A DNA stretch of 64,000 nucleotides from Eubacteriaceae bacterium CHKCI004 (GTDB lineage Bacteria > Bacillota > Clostridia > Lachnospirales > Lachnospiraceae): contig FCNR01000023.1 in NCBI GenBank assembly GCA_900016875.1, forward strand, positions 124,001-188,000, written 5' to 3'. The notes under the pieces are model-generated. The model was given only the letters and a program-made list of their open reading frames with translations, was not told the DNA's origin and made no database searches. The position numbers were made by a program, and so were the translations under genes. Positions 1,609 to 53,545 of the stretch are shown one piece after another (the stretch's first letter is position 1; each line of letters starts with the position of its first letter).

Positions 1609-1618
1609 ACAGACTTTC

Positions 1619-1653
1619 ATATTATAGGAATTCCAGCAAAATTTCCTATCAAT
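1619..1653. repeat. Dispersed palindromic repeat, degenerate copy
   Basis: Imperfect inverted repeat built on ATAGGAATT...AATTTCCTAT. Its first 19 bases (ending TTCCAGC) are identical to the reverse complement of the palindrome at 15610-15647, and a further 10-base block matches after a 2-base difference. It lies between the recombinase stop and the feoB fragment. Confidence 0.7.
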
Positions 1654-1658
1654 TAAAA

Positions 1659-1680
1659 AAAGCCCATGTGCATGGGCTTT
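1659..1680. other. Perfect palindrome at the recombinase/feoB junction (candidate att core)
   Basis: A 10-bp perfect inverted repeat (AAAGCCCATG / CATGGGCTTT) around a central TG. The right half is feoB coding sequence for the conserved MCMGFGC motif; the left half is preceded by an A-run with no feoB coding sense. Serine integrases cross over at a central dinucleotide in quasi-palindromic sites, so this is a good candidate for one attachment site of the element. On the minus strand the same bases, followed by a T-run, also look like an intrinsic terminator. Confidence 0.5.
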
Positions 1681-2529
1681 GGCTGCAATGCGGCGGGCGT
1701 GGTAGGGTGCCGTATTATCGACTCGCCGCGGGAACGGCTGCTGGCCATACTGACAAACAGTTTCGTGCCGTGCAACGGACGCTTTCCGACTTTGATCGCT
1801 CTTATCACGATGTTTTTCGTGGGAACAGGAGGCTCATTCGGAGATTCTGTATTGTCATCCTTTATGCTCACCGGCGTGATCGTGTTCAGTGTCGGAATCA
1901 CTTTTTTTGTGACAAGATTTCTGTCCGGCACAATCCTGAAAGGAGTTCCCTCTTCTTTTACCCTGGAGCTGCCGCCTTACCGCTGTCCGCAGGTGGGCAA
2001 AGTTATCTTACGTTCCATCATGGAGCGCACGCTTTTTGTACTGGGCCGGGCGGCCGCCGTCGCCGCTCCCGCCGGCATGGTTTTGTGGATTCTTGCAAAT
2101 GTATCGGTGAACGGAGCAAGTCTGCTCGCCGTCTGCTCCGGTTTTCTTGACCCGTTTGCCCGGCTCATGGGGCTTGACGGCGTGATTCTGCTTGCATTCA
2201 TTCTGGGATTGCCAGCCAATGAAATTGTTTTGCCAATCATTGTCATGGCCTATCTGGCGGAAGGGAGCATAGCAGAGACCGGAAGTTTGCCGGAAATGAA
2301 AGCACTGTTCGTCTCCCACGGATGGACGATGACCACAGCGCTGTGCACCATGCTCTTTTCTCTCATGCACTGGCCGTGTTCCACCACGCTCCTGACCATC
2401 AAAAAAGAAACGGGAAGCTGGAAATGGACGATACTCGCCGCCCTTCTTCCGGCTTCCCTGGGAATAATCTCCTGTATGATTGTGAACCTCAGCAGCACGC
2501 TTATGAAAAGTCTTTCATTCTTCTTATGA
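1663..2529 (+). pseudogene. feoB: feoB 3' fragment (ferrous iron transporter, headless)
   Basis: The frame encodes the C-terminal ~288 residues of FeoB, the Fe(II) permease. It opens at the conserved gate motif MGFGCNAAG, continues through SPRERLLAILTNSFVPCNGR, and later carries the GLPANE motif typical of the second gate domain; several hydrophobic helices follow. The N-terminal G domain with its GTP-binding loops and the first gate segment are absent (full FeoB is usually 600-800 aa). The frame opens directly at the palindrome at 1659-1680, just after a serine recombinase gene. The likely cause is integration of an element into feoB, with the 5' part lying upstream of this window. It could be restored if the element excises. 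Confidence 0.8.
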
Positions 2530-2556
2530 AAATCGTCAGAAAATCGTGAGAAAAAA

Positions 2557-2588
2557 TTGACACAATCTATACAATTATCGTTTATACT
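2557..2588 (+). promoter_or_regulatory. Promoter of candidate small RNA 1
   Basis: TTGACA at 2557-2562 followed by TTTATACT at 2581-2588 (spacing 18 to TTTATA or 20 to TATACT). The expected start near 2594 coincides with the first hairpin of the candidate RNA. No coding sequence follows. Confidence 0.5.
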
Positions 2589-2594
2589 AAGACC

Positions 2595-2690
2595 ATCAAA
2601 ACAACAAGAGCTGTTTTGATAGTCATAGATTTTTTCATACTTTTCTCTCTTCAAAAAAGATACTGCCGGCGGGCAGTATCTTTTTATTTT
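2595..2690 (+). ncRNA. Candidate small RNA 1, paralogue of 15507-15610
   Basis: About 96 nt with three parts: a 5' hairpin (ATCAAAAC ... GTTTTGAT, 2595-2620), a U- and CU-rich unpaired stretch (2623-2651), and an intrinsic terminator (2654-2690). The stretch at 2623-2651 is identical at 28 of 29 positions to 15529-15557, which is flanked in the same order by a different 5' hairpin and a different terminator. A conserved loop between divergent hairpins argues for an RNA under selection rather than a copied DNA repeat. The CU-rich part could pair with purine-rich ribosome binding sites. It may be a known Rfam family; that could not be checked. Confidence 0.6.
2654..2690. terminator. Bidirectional intrinsic terminator
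   Basis: Stem AAAGATACTGCC / GGCAGTATCTTT with A-run on the left and T-run on the right. It ends the candidate RNA on the plus strand and can end the amino acid transporter operon on the minus strand. Confidence 0.85.
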
Positions 2691-2698
2691 ATGCAGAA

Positions 2699-3445
2699 TC
2701 AGAGATTTCTGAAACGGCTCAAAAATTCTTTTGTTTTTTCTTTCTTCGGGTTACGGAAGAGCTCTTCGCTGGTACCTTCCTCTTCGATGACGCCGTCGGC
2801 CATGAAAATGATATGGCTGGAGATGTCTCTGGCGAAGGCCATCTCGTGGGTGACAATGAGCATGGTCATGCCTTCCTCGGCAAGGGTGCTCATGACGTTC
2901 AGCACCTCGCCTACCATCTGCGGGTCAAGGGCGGAGGTCGGCTCGTCAAAGAGCAGCACTTCCGGCTCCATGGCGAGAGCTCTGGCGATGGCCACTCTCT
3001 GCTTCTGACCACCGGAAAGCTGACGAGGCTTTGCATTGATGAACTGCTCCATGCCTACCTTCTCCAGAAACTGCATGGCCAGTTTCTCCGCTTCTGCCTT
3101 ACTTTTTTTTGCCACCTTTTCCGGGCCGATCATACAGTTTTCCAATACCGTCAGATTATTAAACAGATTGAAGTTCTGGAACACCATGCCCACCTTCTCC
3201 CGGTATGCCGGCACTGACATTTTCGGATCGGTGATATCCTCCCCGTGATAGAGGATGCTGCCGCCTGTCGGATTCTCCAGCAGATTGATACAGCGCAGCA
3301 TGGTGGATTTGCCGGAGCCGGAGGCTCCGATGATGGAGATAACGTCTCCCTTTTTCACAGTAAAATCAATGTCTTTCAATACCTCGTGGGTACCGAAACT
3401 CTTCTCCAGATGGGAGATCTCCAGAATATTATTTGTGTTTTCCAT
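2699..3445 (-). CDS. Polar amino acid ABC transporter, ATP-binding protein
   Basis: Cytoplasmic ATPase (248 aa) of a GlnQ/HisP-type amino acid importer. It shows Walker [11 protein letters not shown]-loop region MVFQNFNLF, signature LSGGQKQR, Walker [13 protein letters not shown] and the switch histidine in VTHEMAFA. Length is typical. Its ATG overlaps the permease stop by one base (TAATG), so translation is coupled. Last gene of a binding protein-permease-ATPase operon on the minus strand, followed by the terminator at 2654-2690. Substrate is not readable from the ATPase. Confidence 0.93.
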
Positions 3446-4230
3446 TATAATCTCCCCTTTCCGTCCTGACCGAACTGGGTTCCCACACCCATAGTGTCTA
3501 CCAGCTCGTAATTATCATTGCCGTCCAGCTTTTTCTCCCAGAGCAGAAGCAGACGGGAGGAAATCAGCGTCATGACAAGGTAAATACACATAACAATAGT
3601 AGCGGATTCAAAGTAGGTGTACAGCGCTCCTGATACGCTCTTATGTACAAAGAACAGATCGACAACACCAATTACGGACAGCACGGAGGAGTCTTTGATA
3701 TTGATGATAAAGTTATTGCCGATCTGCGGAACGATGTTACGCAGTGCCTGTGGCAGAACCACATGGATCATTGCCTGAAAATGTGTCATACCAATGGCCT
3801 TTGCGCCTTCCATCTGTCCCGGATCCACGGAAATGATACCGCCGCGGACCGATTCGGCCATGTAGGCGCCGGTGTTGATGGAGACAACGAAGAAGGCTGC
3901 CTGCCACATACCCAGATGGATATCAAACACCTGAGCCGCGCCATAGTAGATAAATACGGCCTGTACCATCATTGGCGTTCCGCGGAAGATCTCCACATAC
4001 GCCTTGAAAATAATCTTTACAATTCTAAGCAGAACCCGTTTCGACAGGCTGTCTCTCTTCGTATCAACAGGAATAGTCTGCACAACGCCCACACCAAAAC
4101 CGATGATACATCCGACAATGGTGGAGACGACAGCGATGGCCAGCGTAGCGCCGGCTCCCTGCAAAAACGACATACCATAATTCTGGAGCAGGTAAACGAT
4201 CCTCTCCAGAAAGCTCATCTCGGAAATCAT
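3445..4230 (-). CDS. Polar amino acid ABC transporter, permease
   Basis: Inner-membrane permease (261 aa) of the HisM/GlnP type, with a long N-terminal helix region and the EAA-loop segment around [15 protein letters not shown] that contacts the ATPase. Start at 4230 (MISEMSF) is preferred to the upstream ATGs because GAAAGGA lies 7 nt before it. One permease gene is present, so the transporter is probably a homodimer. A hairpin between it and the upstream binding protein gene may lower permease expression relative to the binding protein. Confidence 0.9.
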
Positions 4231-4259
4231 TGTTTCATCCTTTCTCATACATAGCATAT

Positions 4260-49277: not shown

Positions 49278-49608
49278 TATCTCCTCTATTTCTTATTCTT
49301 ATATTTTTACCACAGTTTCTGTTCGGTTTATGTAAAAACACTAAAAAATTACTTGTTTTTTTCCATTCTTTCATAAAAAGAACATCTGCCCTATCCTTAT
49401 ATGTCATTCGATTGATACATTTTGTTCATTATAACAAAAACCTATCTGTTATACAAGTAGAAATTTCCCGGCGAATTACCCCCGAAATCCATACAAAAAT
49501 AACCAACTTCTCATTGACAAAGTTTTCCCTGCGCGAGTATCATAGGCTCAGGAAAACAGGTTAAACCTTTGACATATTTGTCGCCAGAATGATTGAGGAG
49601 AATTTACA
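49278..49608. other. Divergent region between GH32 and the ParB-BMP gene
   Basis: Carries the GH32 promoter/operator (49402-49433) and presumably the promoter for the gene at 49609. No gene seen. Confidence 0.5.
49402..49433 (-). promoter_or_regulatory. GH32 promoter with operator-like site
   Basis: On the minus strand an extended -10 TGTTATAAT (49428-49433 for TATAAT) is followed at about +2 to +19 by TGTATCAATCGAATGACA (49402-49419), a CG-centred imperfect palindrome sharing TCAATCG with the msmE operator. Confidence 0.5.
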
Positions 49609-51588
49609 ATGATCACAACAAAAGCAGATGCAAAAATGAATTATGAAAAAGCCTGTCACCTCGGCAAAAAAGAGGGCGGCTCGCCTGCTGTTCTGGACGC
49701 CATTCTTCAGGAACGACACATAACCGCTCCGGCAGAAGTCTCTCTCGGCCTCGTATCCATACCTGTCGAGCGTATTGTCGGAACCAAAAGCAAGGGGCGA
49801 AGTCAGTCTTTCAGCAAGAACTTTTATCCTGTCCTGAAAGAGAATACCGAGTTTGCTTCCAAATGGATCTCTCTGTGCAGCGCCCATCTCAATGAAGGTA
49901 TCCGCGACCCCATCAAGGCATACGAATTCATGAATCAATTTTATGTGGAGGAAGGCAACAAAAGGGTCAGCGTGCTGAAATATTTTGGTGCGGTTTCTAT
50001 CCCTGCCAATGTCATCCGCATCATTCCGCCGCAGAATGACGACAAGGAAACGCGCATTTATTACGAATTCATGGATTTTTACAGTCTGTCACAGATCAAC
50101 GACATCTGGTTTTCCCGCACAGGCAGCTTTGCGCGCCTGCAGCGTCTGGTCGGAAAACTGCCCAACGAGTCCTGGAGCAACGAAGACAGAAAGACTTTTC
50201 ACTCTTCCTATGCTCTTTTTCAGGAAGTATTTGATTCTTTAAACGAAAAGAAATCTTCGCTCCTTTCCGGGAACACCGTACTGAATTCTCTGGAAGACGC
50301 CGCAGATAAAAAGAAGCCTTCCGTTCTTCCGGGAGACGCCTTTCTCTATTATATTGACCTGTACGGATACGACTCTCTGCAGACGGACAGCACTGCAGAG
50401 CTCAAGAGGAAACTTAAGAAAACGAGAGACGAGTTTCAGCTGCTGCAGTCTGAGCAGTCCGTGGCCCTGCAGATGGATCCGGGCGAAGGCAAGAAGAAGA
50501 ATCTTCTGCTGCGGCTGATTCCGGCAGGCACCAAAAAAGTCCGCGTCTGCTTTATCTATGCCAGAACCATTGATAAATCCGGCTGGTCTTACTCCCATGA
50601 TCTGGGCCGGGCGCATCTGCAGCAGACCTTCTCCGATCAGGTGATCACTTCCTACTACGAAAATGTCACGCAGGAAAATATCGCAGAATATTTACAGAAG
50701 GCCATCGACGCCGGTAATGATCTTATCTTTACCACCTCGCCGATTTTTCTGCGGGAGAGTCTGAAAGCCGCCATCGATCATCCGGAAGTCAAGATATTAA
50801 ACTGTTCGCTGAACACGTCCTACAAACACATCCGCACCTACTACGCGCGGATGCACGAAGCCAAGTTTCTCATGGGCGCGGTGGCTGGCGCCATGGCCGA
50901 CAATGACCGCATCGGCTATGTCGCCGATTATCCTATTTACGGCAACATCGCAGGCATCAACGCCTTCGCCCTGGGCGCGCAGATGGTAAATCCCCGGGCG
51001 ACTGTTTATCTGGAATGGTCCAGGCGCACTCACCCGATACCGCAGTCTTTTTTTACTGAGCACGGAATCTCCATTATCTGCGGCAAAGATTCCACCGCTC
51101 CGGGTATGTATGACCAGCAGTTCGGTCTTTACCGGCGCGATGGTGATGCTATCTGGAATATGGCAATGCCCGTCCGGAACTGGGGACGTTTTTATGAACA
51201 TATGATCCGGAATGTTATGAACGGAAGCTGGAAACTGGATGATGAAAAAGACACCACAAAGGGACTGAACTACTGGTGGGGCATGTCCTCCGGCATCGTC
51301 GACGTCATCTGCTCCCACCGGCTTCCAATCGGTACTTCCCGCCTGATTGCTCTGCTGAAAGATACCATCTGCCGCGGAGGTTTCAATCCATTTTCCGGCA
51401 TCATGTATTCCCAGAACGGCGTGATCAAGGACAACTCTTCCGACACGCTGACGCCGGAGGAGATCATTACCATGGACTGGCTGGCAAGCAATATCGTTGG
51501 CTCCATTCCATCCAAAGACGATCTGGACGAACCCGCACGGGACCTGACCGCCATTCAGGGCGTGAAGGAGGAGGACCGCCTGCCATGA
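49609..51588 (+). CDS. ParB-like domain fused to cytoplasmic BMP-type binding domain, 659 aa
   Basis: No signal peptide or lipobox, so cytoplasmic. Residues ~45-140 look like a ParB/sulfiredoxin-fold domain: IPVERIVGTKSKGRSQSF, then DPIKAYEF and YVEEGNKRVSVLKYFGA, where EGNKR matches the ParB nucleotide-binding box. A helical linker follows (~150-300). Residues ~310-600 match the BMP/PnrA nucleoside-binding family (VCFIYARTIDKSGWSY; FLMGAVAGAM; GYVADYPIYGNIAGINAFA). BMP domains are normally exported lipoproteins. GAGGAGA precedes the ATG. The stop overlaps the next start by 4 nt. Possibly a nucleoside or nucleotide sensor; function is inferred. Confidence 0.75.
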   Translation: MITTKADAKMNYEKACHLGKKEGGSPAVLDAILQERHITAPAEVSLGLVSIPVERIVGTKSKGRSQSFSKNFYPVLKENTEFASKWISLCSAHLNEGIRDPIKAYEFMNQFYVEEGNKRVSVLKYFGAVSIPANVIRIIPPQNDDKETRIYYEFMDFYSLSQINDIWFSRTGSFARLQRLVGKLPNESWSNEDRKTFHSSYALFQEVFDSLNEKKSSLLSGNTVLNSLEDAADKKKPSVLPGDAFLYYIDLYGYDSLQTDSTAELKRKLKKTRDEFQLLQSEQSVALQMDPGEGKKKNLLLRLIPAGTKKVRVCFIYARTIDKSGWSYSHDLGRAHLQQTFSDQVITSYYENVTQENIAEYLQKAIDAGNDLIFTTSPIFLRESLKAAIDHPEVKILNCSLNTSYKHIRTYYARMHEAKFLMGAVAGAMADNDRIGYVADYPIYGNIAGINAFALGAQMVNPRATVYLEWSRRTHPIPQSFFTEHGISIICGKDSTAPGMYDQQFGLYRRDGDAIWNMAMPVRNWGRFYEHMIRNVMNGSWKLDDEKDTTKGLNYWWGMSSGIVDVICSHRLPIGTSRLIALLKDTICRGGFNPFSGIMYSQNGVIKDNSSDTLTPEEIITMDWLASNIVGSIPSKDDLDEPARDLTAIQGVKEEDRLP

Positions 51589-52196
51589 AGATTCTAGCAA
51601 TATCAGACATCGAATCTCCCTACTTCTGGGATTATTATGAGAAAAAGAAGCTGGCAGACATCGACCTCATCCTGTCCGCGGGTGACCTACGGTCCGAGTA
51701 TCTCTCTTTCCTGGTCACCATGTCCAGCGCCCCGGTACTCTACGTCCACGGCAACCATGATACAGAGTACAAACGCAAACCGCCGGAGGGCTGCATCTGC
51801 GTGGACGACAAGCTCTACGTTCACGAGGGCATCCGGATTCTGGGTCTTGGCGGCTCCATGAATTACAACGACGGAGAATATCAGTACGAGGAGAAGGAAA
51901 TGCAGCGCCGCGCCAAAAAACGTACGCTGTCCCTCATGCGCCACGGCGGCATGGACATTCTGCTGACCCACGCTCCCGCCCGCAATATCAACGACGGGGA
52001 AGACCTGCCCCACCGGGGCTTTGAGACCTTCTGCCACCTGCTGGACCGCTACCAGCCCCGTTATTTCATCCACGGGCATGTGCACAAAAATTATGGCTGT
52101 GATTTTCACCGTTATGATAAATACAAAGATACGGAAATCATCAACGCTTACGAATACTGTATTTTTGAATATGGCGGCGGCACAGCCGGAAAGTAG
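51585..52196 (+). CDS. Metallophosphoesterase (YfcE-like), coupled to ParB-BMP
   Basis: Calcineurin-like phosphoesterase, 203 aa. Metal motifs: SDIESPYF, SAGDLRSEY, HGNHDTEY, LLTHAPARN and IHGHVHKNYG. The first motif is D-I-E where D-x-H is usual, so one metal ligand differs. ATG at 51585 overlaps the upstream stop (ATGA), which ties its translation to the ParB-BMP protein. Substrate is probably a small phosphodiester or nucleotide, but nothing in the sequence fixes it. Confidence 0.82.
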   Translation: MKILAISDIESPYFWDYYEKKKLADIDLILSAGDLRSEYLSFLVTMSSAPVLYVHGNHDTEYKRKPPEGCICVDDKLYVHEGIRILGLGGSMNYNDGEYQYEEKEMQRRAKKRTLSLMRHGGMDILLTHAPARNINDGEDLPHRGFETFCHLLDRYQPRYFIHGHVHKNYGCDFHRYDKYKDTEIINAYEYCIFEYGGGTAGK

Positions 52197-52435: not shown

Positions 52436-53545
52436 ATGGCAACATTATCTTTAAAGGGAATTCAGAAAGTTTACCCGAACGGTTACCATGCCGTAACAGA
52501 CTTCAATCTGGAGATTGCAGATAAAGAGTTTATCATCTTCGTTGGACCATCCGGATGTGGTAAGTCCACCACACTTCGTATGATTGCCGGTCTGGAAGAC
52601 ATTTCCGACGGTGAGTTCCGTATCGACGGCAAGCTGATGAACAACATCGAACCAAAGGACCGTGACATCGCCATGGTTTTCCAGAACTACGCTCTGTATC
52701 CGCATATGACCGTATATGACAACATGGCATTCAGCTTAAAGCTCCGCAAGGTGCCAAAGGATGAGATTGACAAGAAGGTTCGTGAAGCTGCCAAGATTCT
52801 TGACCTTGACAAACTTCTTGACCGTAAGCCAAACGCTCTTTCCGGTGGTCAGAGACAGCGTGTTGCCATGGGACGTGCTATCGTCCGTAATCCGAAAGTA
52901 TTCCTGATGGACGAACCTCTTTCCAATCTGGATGCAAAACTGAGAGTTCAGATGCGTATTGAGATCTCCAAACTGCATCAGAACCTGGGCGCTACCATCA
53001 TTTACGTAACCCATGACCAGACAGAAGCTATGACTCTTGGTACAAGAATCGTCGTTATGAAAGACGGTATCATGCAGCAGGTAGATACGCCTCAGAACCT
53101 GTATGATAAGCCATGCAACCTGTTCGTAGCAGGATTTATCGGATCTCCTCAGATGAACTTCATGGATGCACAGGTTAAGGTTTCCGGCAACGATGTAACC
53201 CTGAAGGTTGGACACAGCGAAATGAAAGTTCCTGATTCCAAGAAACAGGCTCTGATCGATGGAAACTACAACGGCAAGACCGTTATCCTTGGTATCCGTC
53301 CGGAAGATATCTACGAGGCAGATGACGCCGGCGCTCCGGTTGGCCTTAACATTAACTCCAAGATTAAGTTCTACGAGCTGCTGGGTGCAGAGGTTTATCT
53401 GTACTTCGATATGGAAGGCACACAGATGACAGCACGTGTAAGCTCCAGCACCAAGCTGAAATCCGGCATGGATGCTAAGTTTACATTAGACATGGAAAAA
53501 ATTCATTTATTCGATAAAGAAACAGAAGTTACCATCACCAATTAG
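52436..53545 (+). CDS. msmK: MsmK/UgpC-type sugar ABC transporter ATPase
   Basis: ATPase, 369 aa, of the kind shared by several CUT1 sugar importers. Walker [10 protein letters not shown], signature LSGGQRQRVAMGRA, Walker B FLMDEPLSNLD, switch VTHDQTEAMTL, and C-terminal OB/TOBE regulatory domains (~240-369). AAGGAGG upstream. Codon use is strikingly uniform and favours codons of highly expressed genes. MsmEFG at 41-44 kb lacks its own ATPase, so this orphan gene is the natural partner and may serve other importers in the genome. Confidence 0.93.
   Translation: MATLSLKGIQKVYPNGYHAVTDFNLEIADKEFIIFVGPSGCGKSTTLRMIAGLEDISDGEFRIDGKLMNNIEPKDRDIAMVFQNYALYPHMTVYDNMAFSLKLRKVPKDEIDKKVREAAKILDLDKLLDRKPNALSGGQRQRVAMGRAIVRNPKVFLMDEPLSNLDAKLRVQMRIEISKLHQNLGATIIYVTHDQTEAMTLGTRIVVMKDGIMQQVDTPQNLYDKPCNLFVAGFIGSPQMNFMDAQVKVSGNDVTLKVGHSEMKVPDSKKQALIDGNYNGKTVILGIRPEDIYEADDAGAPVGLNINSKIKFYELLGAEVYLYFDMEGTQMTARVSSSTKLKSGMDAKFTLDMEKIHLFDKETEVTITN

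Follow-up and report, generated by a model that had tools for sequence, protein, structure and literature searches.

What would a BMP-type Venus-flytrap domain do inside the cell, fused to a ParB-like domain and followed at once by a phosphoesterase gene? The question is raised by a 64,000-nucleotide stretch of DNA (hereafter the window; positions 124001-188000 of contig FCNR01000023.1, assembly GCA_900016875.1) in the 3.99-Mb genome of Eubacteriaceae bacterium CHKCI004. From the letters alone, an initial annotation had placed at 49609-52196 a cytoplasmic fusion protein with a metallophosphoesterase (MPE) as its partner, and had taken the two for a unit of unknown function. Our analysis located the two open reading frames (ORFs) at exactly these coordinates (49609-51588 and 51585-52196), and both the adjacency of the two genes and their co-occurrence across genomes strongly support such a unit. 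Its parts are as follows.

49609..51588, + strand: fusion protein ORF, 659 aa (amino acids), ATG start; ParB-fold-like N-terminal domain, helical linker and BMP (Venus-flytrap) domain
49732..50028, + strand: predicted ParB-fold-like domain, residues ~42-140, delimited by the A3-A4-ParB profile chain (defined below) and by alignment with standalone relatives
49849..49914, + strand: Box I-like helix and loop, residues 81-102; modelled helix 81-96, then GIRDPI
49951..49965, + strand: EGNKR, Box II (P motif, GxxR), residues 115-119
50044..50523, + strand: helical linker, residues ~146-305; model confidence low at 214-237 and 281-307
50530..51510, + strand: BMP/PnrA-like domain, residues 308-634; AtzT and 3s99 closest
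51585..51588, + strand: ATGA, four bases shared by the fusion stop and the MPE start, read in the sequence
51585..52196, + strand: calcineurin-like MPE, partner gene, 203 aa, ATG start
51606..51614, + strand: D8-I9-E10, altered metal motif I (canonical D-x-H), from sequence and alignment

The fusion gene and the MPE gene form a conserved pair

The source bacterium is close to Eubacterium sp. An11 and Candidatus Anaerobutyricum avicola, in which the fusion protein is 89% and 83% identical to that of the window. A relative is encoded in 461 genome stretches, of which the best 80 were analysed; an MPE gene lies downstream of the fusion gene on the same strand in 80/80 of these, two of the MPEs (L069 and L080) being cut by a contig end. 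The spacing was read in 77 fusion rows, the window included and L011, L020, L029 and L051 left out as unreadable from the start codon; it ranges from a 4-base overlap to a 329-base gap and is ≤60 bases in 65. The ATGA overlap that the initial annotation had noticed has counterparts of the same length in L003, L004, L006 and L073, as well as in Collinsella aerofaciens.

Genomic co-occurrence, proposed as a check by the same annotation, was surveyed in the class to which the window belongs, with 393 genomes. The fusion profile gives some match in 118 of them and a full-length match, one that starts at or before model position ~6 and reaches at least 544, in 46 genomes spread over 13 families; the remaining matches are shorter and cover chiefly the BMP half. 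The MPE profile matches 47 genomes at E ≤1e-20. Both genes occur in 45 genomes, the fusion alone in one, the MPE alone in two and neither in 345 (Fisher p 1.5e-55, kinship ignored). The single fusion-alone case (G088) sits at a contig end, the MPE-alone genomes are G184 and G070, and two of the 45 (G366 and G150) carry fusion and MPE on different contigs.

Of the 30 best class-wide loci, among them that of the window and a few nearly identical to loci already described, 29 have an adjacent MPE, and the 30th lies at a contig end. The two genes share a strand in 19 of the 29 loci and are convergent in ten; in L129 the MPE comes first and overlaps the fusion. Since orientation and order vary while adjacency stays, the link between the two is not one of co-transcription alone. 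Altogether, the fusion and the MPE form a conserved gene pair, beyond chance, which is frequent among gut Lachnospiraceae.

A bridging family connects the N-terminal domain with the ParB fold

Searches of Pfam, NCBIfam and PDB sequences with the N-terminal domain gave nothing useful. PF02195 (ParB_N) matched neither the window protein nor any of 40 N-domains at E ≤10, and Bmp is the sole Pfam family above cut-off in the fusion, with neither a helix-turn-helix (HTH) nor the C-terminal dimerisation domain of canonical ParABS ParB. Profiles were compared for the whole fusion (A1), the N-domains (A3), a six-row bridging family (A4) and, as controls, the MPEs (A2 and A5), in addition to a ParB profile of 27 ParB-type rows taken from PF02195 loci by their GERR-like motif. 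The comparison revealed that A3 matches A4 at 98% (1.3e-13), A4 matches ParB at 92% (6.4e-7), and A3 and A4 jointly match ParB at 70% (4.1e-5). Moreover, a search with A4 also retrieves the ParB_N protein L206 at 3.6e-6. These matches support homology of the N-domain to the ParB fold, a relation seen only through the bridge and not directly. In this form the ParB/Srx-like assignment of the initial annotation survives, via the bridging family; it finds no backing from Pfam or from direct comparison, which stays at control level. Of the two outcomes that the annotation had named as speaking against it, an N-terminus outside this fold and a pair not conserved as neighbours, neither turned up.

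The EGNKR box that the initial annotation had read lies at residues 115-119 and is present in 77/77 fusions, its GNKR core marking Box II in every aligned row; a wider set of 32 sense rows, with the antisense L090 row left out, has EGNKR in 31 and EGHKR in one. The direct A3-ParB alignment, which spans 77 columns, places GNKR on GERR. In the Box I-like loop, E96, G97, I98 and P101 are invariant in the aligned fusions; the label Box I was assigned here, with the naming of the main text of PMC12704722. In addition, DUF4032 weakly matches the bridging-family segment equivalent to the helical linker.

According to that main text (2025), ParB-CTPase-fold proteins act outside segregation as well, among them SerK, SbnI, Srx, DndB-like proteins and various fusions. 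The window protein shares with them the GxxR motif and a fused domain, and likewise no HTH was found. The survey's domain search used PF02195, which the window N-domain escapes, and the words "BMP", "periplasmic" and "phosphoesterase" have no occurrence in its main text, where a BMP partner or a constant MPE neighbour is therefore absent.

SerK, SbnI and Srx are named there as ATP-using members of the fold, a point in favour of a small-molecule kinase with a SerK/SbnI-like ParB fold, in which the MPE would remove phosphate or clear the product and the BMP domain would tune the kinase. The bridging-family member L169 also weakly matches NF053625 SerK (6.5e-4), and for L174, a lone relative of 125 aa, the PDB gives a weak match to SbnI (0.21). 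However, the SerK score of L169 is 18.9 bits, far below the curated cut-off of 380, and ParB models match the other bridging-family members about equally or better. The SerK model did not match the window protein. We consider such a kinase unlikely.

ParB-like and MPE genes are also paired in the absence of the BMP domain

A survey of 398 genomes of the phylum, with A3 at E ≤0.01 and A4 at E ≤1e-4, revealed A3 matches in 16 genomes and A4 matches in 30. Five of the 16 carry the fusion, and in six the N-domain belongs to a 308-325-aa protein that lacks BMP; the others give shorter or weaker matches, of which L179 (E 0.008) was rejected as spurious, being an unrelated enzyme by its letters. An MPE gene of the same family lies immediately upstream of the gene for the long standalone ParB-like protein in 13/13 cases, and immediately downstream for the proteins of ~200 aa in 2/2. 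Six MPEs of standalone pairs score 166-217 bits with the fusion-partner profile, compared to 356-404 for four fusion partners. Five more distant A4 matches lack an MPE in the flanks that were fetched.

Two named cases lie further afield. In Cetobacterium somerae an MPE gene precedes that of a 562-aa ParB-like protein, and in Tsukamurella tyrosinosolvens sugar-transporter genes, an MPE and a 288-aa "ParB" follow each other on the same strand. The Cetobacterium protein (L211, 4905-6593) has a C-terminal part without a Pfam family above cut-off, and its gene comes after a glycogen phosphorylase gene and the MPE.

Pairs of a ParB-like domain and an MPE without BMP thus occur in other Bacillota, Fusobacteriota and Actinomycetes. 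They resemble the window's pair in the homologous N-domain and the homologous adjacent MPE; they differ in lacking the BMP domain, their C-terminus being Cys-rich or 4Fe-4S, unassigned (Cetobacterium) or short (Tsukamurella), and the MPE comes first in 13/15 of them and in both named cases. The 4Fe-4S ends belong to L173, L175 and L187. The standalone proteins L169-L173, L175 and L180-L192 combine a ParB-like domain with DUF4032-like helices and, where inspected, a Cys-rich/4Fe-4S end, with an MPE before each. They may represent a variant of the pair that senses redox state or iron.

Because the ParB-like domain and the MPE are paired in the absence of BMP too, the distribution suggests that these two form the core, with BMP as one of several C-terminal parts. 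The initial annotation had put the BMP-ParB fusion at the heart of the unit; the fusion is real, and the centre appears to lie in the ParB-like domain and the MPE. The ParB-like/MPE pair seems to be older, with BMP joining later, as judged from distribution and not from a rooted tree.

The BMP domain is predicted to be cytosolic and has an altered pocket

Residues 310-472 match Pfam PF02608 (Bmp) at 5.4e-18, with 65.5 bits against a curated cut-off of 24.1, and the best PDB sequence matches of residues 308-634 are AtzT 6pi5 (4.1e-35) and Brucella 3s99 (1.1e-34), which establishes the BMP domain claimed initially. A structure search with the fusion model agrees: AtzT is at the top (Z 24.1 over 299 residues, root-mean-square deviation 3.9), followed by 3s99 (Z 23.7) and, further behind, Lbp (18.4), BmpD (17.6) and PnrA (16.7). 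The matches listed in this full-model search, which the BMP part filled, span residues 306-618.

Despite the shared fold, the window protein differs from AtzT and 3s99 in being fused and in lacking an export signal. Across the 77 fusions no N-terminus is hydrophobic, the highest hydropathy of any 19-residue stretch is 1.67, and a lipobox-like motif near the N-terminus is found in 0/77, compared to 16/18 (narrow pattern) or 17/18 (wider pattern) of the lone BMP relatives, a set of 18 chosen among ~70 shorter matches to the fusion profile. By sequence, then, the fusion protein is predicted to be cytosolic, as the initial annotation had held.

Binding of a nucleoside, which that annotation also took for granted, fares less well. 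According to PMC6834077, the guanine of AtzT is sandwiched by Tyr45 and Trp194 and contacted by Ser97, the Phe98 N, Glu165, Asn218 and Asn220. We compared these positions, in AtzT numbering, between 102 non-redundant fusions and the 18 lone relatives. The 102 rows are what remains of 110 after removal of eight near-identical ones, the antisense L090 row being excluded; the 110 comprise 77 from the first 80 loci (window included), 30 copies from the 46 class-wide genomes, two paralogues and the Collinsella protein.

Position 45: fusions Trp 102/102; lone BMPs Tyr 13, Trp 5
Position 97: fusions Thr 55, Ser 41; lone BMPs Ser 18/18
Position 98: fusions Pro 99/102; lone BMPs aromatic 18/18
Position 165: fusions Gly 89/102; lone BMPs Glu 18/18
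Position 194: fusions Lys 80/102; lone BMPs Trp 18/18
Position 218: fusions Gly 81/102; lone BMPs His 18/18
Position 220: fusions Asp 89/102; lone BMPs Asp 18/18

One aromatic wall is thus kept, and four guanine-site positions (98, 165, 194 and 218) are changed in most fusions; the window protein has Pro378, Gly445, Thr474 and Gly492 there. Most fusions do not have the guanine-type pocket of AtzT; a subclade (L101 and L103-L112) has it in part, with Glu or Asp at 165 in 11/11 and Trp194 in 7/11. In this subclade the MPE is convergent in ten loci, and L111 lies at a contig end. The pocket positions are conserved inside the main clade, yet unlike a guanine-type site, and the Gly and Lys found there would suit a larger or charged ligand. 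Since the subclade keeps Glu/Asp165 and, in part, Trp194, the sensor may originally have been of purine type and altered later in the main clade. Two fusion paralogues (L231 and L232, at G223:C30 and G343:C29) have EGNKR intact and Thr or Ile at the place of Glu165.

The same positions bear on a purine sensor, in which guanine, adenine or a nucleoside would be the ligand of the BMP domain and a nucleotide signal would be hydrolysed by the MPE. The nearest solved relative, AtzT, was found with guanine (PMC6834077) and the more distant Lbp with guanosine, and the subclade retains two of the guanine contacts to the extent given above. Nevertheless, the four altered positions, all kept in 18/18 lone relatives, make this explanation quite improbable for the fusions as a whole.

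The MPE partner has a family-wide altered metal motif

The MPE matches Pfam Metallophos (PF00149) at 2.4e-12, with 48.1 bits against a cut-off of 21.5, and is the single match of the MPE family profile in its own genome at E ≤0.001. Its model is good, with a predicted local distance difference test (pLDDT) score of 88.8, and shares its fold over nearly the whole chain with aq_1956 (2yvt), MPPED2 (3rl3) and TT1561 (1uf3) at Z 17.1-18.5; the nearest are aq_1956 (Z 18.5) and MPPED2 (Z 17.7). The window MPE is 17-20% identical to these three proteins and differs from them in having a ParB-like partner; its motif I is D-x-E.

The motifs GD, GNHD, H and GHxH are all present, and D8, D34, N57, H58, H129, H165 and H167 are invariant in 79/79 aligned partners. 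Motif I departs from the canonical D-x-H: the D-I-E first noticed in the window is confirmed and generalises to D-x-E in 78/79 partners, the remaining one having D-I-K. Among 17 further MPEs, including those of Collinsella and Cetobacterium, the third residue is Glu in eight, Val in four, Ile in three, Arg in one and Ala in one, with D-T-V typical of one standalone subgroup, and it is Glu in Tsukamurella as well. In 21 of the 30 class-wide loci, those whose start was caught by the motif search and which overlap the earlier sets, it is Glu in 20 and Pro in one. His occurs in none of the paired MPEs read. Five distant MPEs that have no ParB-like match in their 1.5-kb flanks show His in two, Gln in two and Thr in one; as three of these five unpaired relatives also lack His, paired MPEs are not the only ones to have lost it. 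Rather than being special to the source genome, the altered metal motif is a trait of the family.

The missing motif-I His (79/79 and 17/17 paired MPEs) could be taken to mean that the MPE is catalytically dead and serves as a structural partner of the ParB-fold protein. Glu can bind metal, however, and the seven other motif residues are invariant to a degree unusual for a dead enzyme. Moreover, the loss seen in unpaired relatives is not tied to pairing, and we give a dead MPE only a slim chance.

Alignment of the MPE model with Mre11 (Z 15.0) and Dbr1 (Z 13.5), together with an endonuclease III gene that adjoins the standalone pair in L170, would fit a nucleic-acid module in which a ParB-like protein binds DNA or RNA and the phosphoesterase resembles Mre11 or Dbr1. 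This seems very unlikely to us: Pfam finds no HTH in the fusion, aq_1956 and MPPED2 score higher than either nuclease-type match, and the endonuclease III neighbour is not constant.

The PADLOC candidate PDC-S10 also matches the window MPE (2.4e-18). Four unpaired MPEs match it too, that of Ruegeria better (4e-28); given these matches PDC-S10 seems to be a general MPE model, and a defence system was rejected.

A possible ligand-gated switch with a dedicated phosphoesterase

The combined architecture leads us to propose, at somewhat short of even confidence, that the pair is a two-protein cytosolic regulatory module, namely a ligand-gated ParB-fold nucleoside triphosphate (NTP) switch with a dedicated phosphoesterase. 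The ParB-fold domain would act as an NTP-binding switch; the C-terminal domain, here the BMP Venus flytrap, would sense a small cytosolic ligand and bias the switch; and the state of the switch would control, or be read out by, the MPE encoded by the overlapping gene. According to the main text of PMC12704722, CTP, ATP or GTP is bound by ParB-fold proteins that carry various fused domains (11/28 purified), and changing the GxxR arginine abolishes NTP binding. As it gives no reliable rule to predict the nucleotide from sequence, we leave the nucleotide of the putative switch unnamed. Exchangeable sensors fit the proposal, because the C-terminal parts vary from BMP to Cys-rich/4Fe-4S, unassigned and short ones.

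Several observations weigh against this module. In the same main text, 17/28 purified ParB-fold proteins bound no NTP. Direct profile comparison of A3 with ParB (0.51%) and of A1 with ParB (0.22%) is no better than the controls (A2-ParB 0.48%, A5-ParB 0.31%, A3-A2 0.33%). The model of the fusion is of medium quality (mean pLDDT 70.0, predicted template-modelling score 0.63) and poor around Box II, with block means of 49 for residues 101-110 and 62 for 111-120. The 16-19 kb fetched around the fusion paralogues in G343 and G223 contain no MPE, although a second fusion copy in each genome is paired with one, and the flanks fetched for five lone ParB-like N-domain relatives of 125-169 aa (L193-L197) contain none either. 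Closer co-evolution of the MPE with the ParB part than with the BMP part was favoured in 76% of bootstraps, short of a decision between the two (67 of 75 pairs, near-identical ones dropped). Finally, there is no third constant gene, the commonest other family occurring in 17/101 loci, and the neighbourhood gives no pathway.

A bolder generalisation of the module, which we hold to be possible but doubtful, is a widespread, undescribed NTP-switch signalling system, in which a ParB-fold protein with exchangeable sensors (Venus flytrap, Fe-S or others) would always work with one family of phosphoesterases altered in motif I, whose task would be to produce, remove or read a nucleotide-type signal. 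Judged by title or the start of the abstract, no paper was found that treats the fusion/MPE pair. ParB-fold NTP switches outside chromosome segregation have been surveyed only recently, with many outputs still to be found, and here one enzyme constantly accompanies a ParB-fold-like protein across three phyla or more. Because this partner is constant, what the switch controls becomes testable with two purified proteins. If true, the proposal would also show how sensors get recruited, by a transport-protein sensor moved inside the cell with a changed pocket.

Neighbouring genes and minor features

Around the standalone or named pairs (18 loci) the neighbouring genes shift with lineage, and a pathway assignment from the neighbourhood was rejected. 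So was a carbohydrate link via the ugpC-like genes of the window and Tsukamurella, which are not constant in other loci. In the window, a gene judged by its letters to encode a UgpC/MsmX-like sugar ATP-binding cassette (ABC) ATPase lies at 52436-53545 (+ strand), 239 bases 3' of the MPE gene; in Tsukamurella, ugpC lies directly 5' of the MPE gene.

A phage origin was discarded, as the single hit in a phage collection is an unverified, unannotated 10-kb faecal scaffold that may be bacterial DNA. This human-faecal "Bacteriophage sp." scaffold (L254, MT836456.1) has the fusion and the MPE side by side at 1615-4245.

Two short sequence features accompany the genes of the pair.

49514..49543, + strand: promoter-like TTGACA-18-TATCAT, 65 bases 5' of the fusion start
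51565..51571, + strand: AAGGAGG, Shine-Dalgarno-like, 13 bases 5' of the MPE ATG, read in the sequence

Promoter-like sites of this kind number six in the window, which is not above the 4.1 (standard deviation 2.2) of shuffled sequences.

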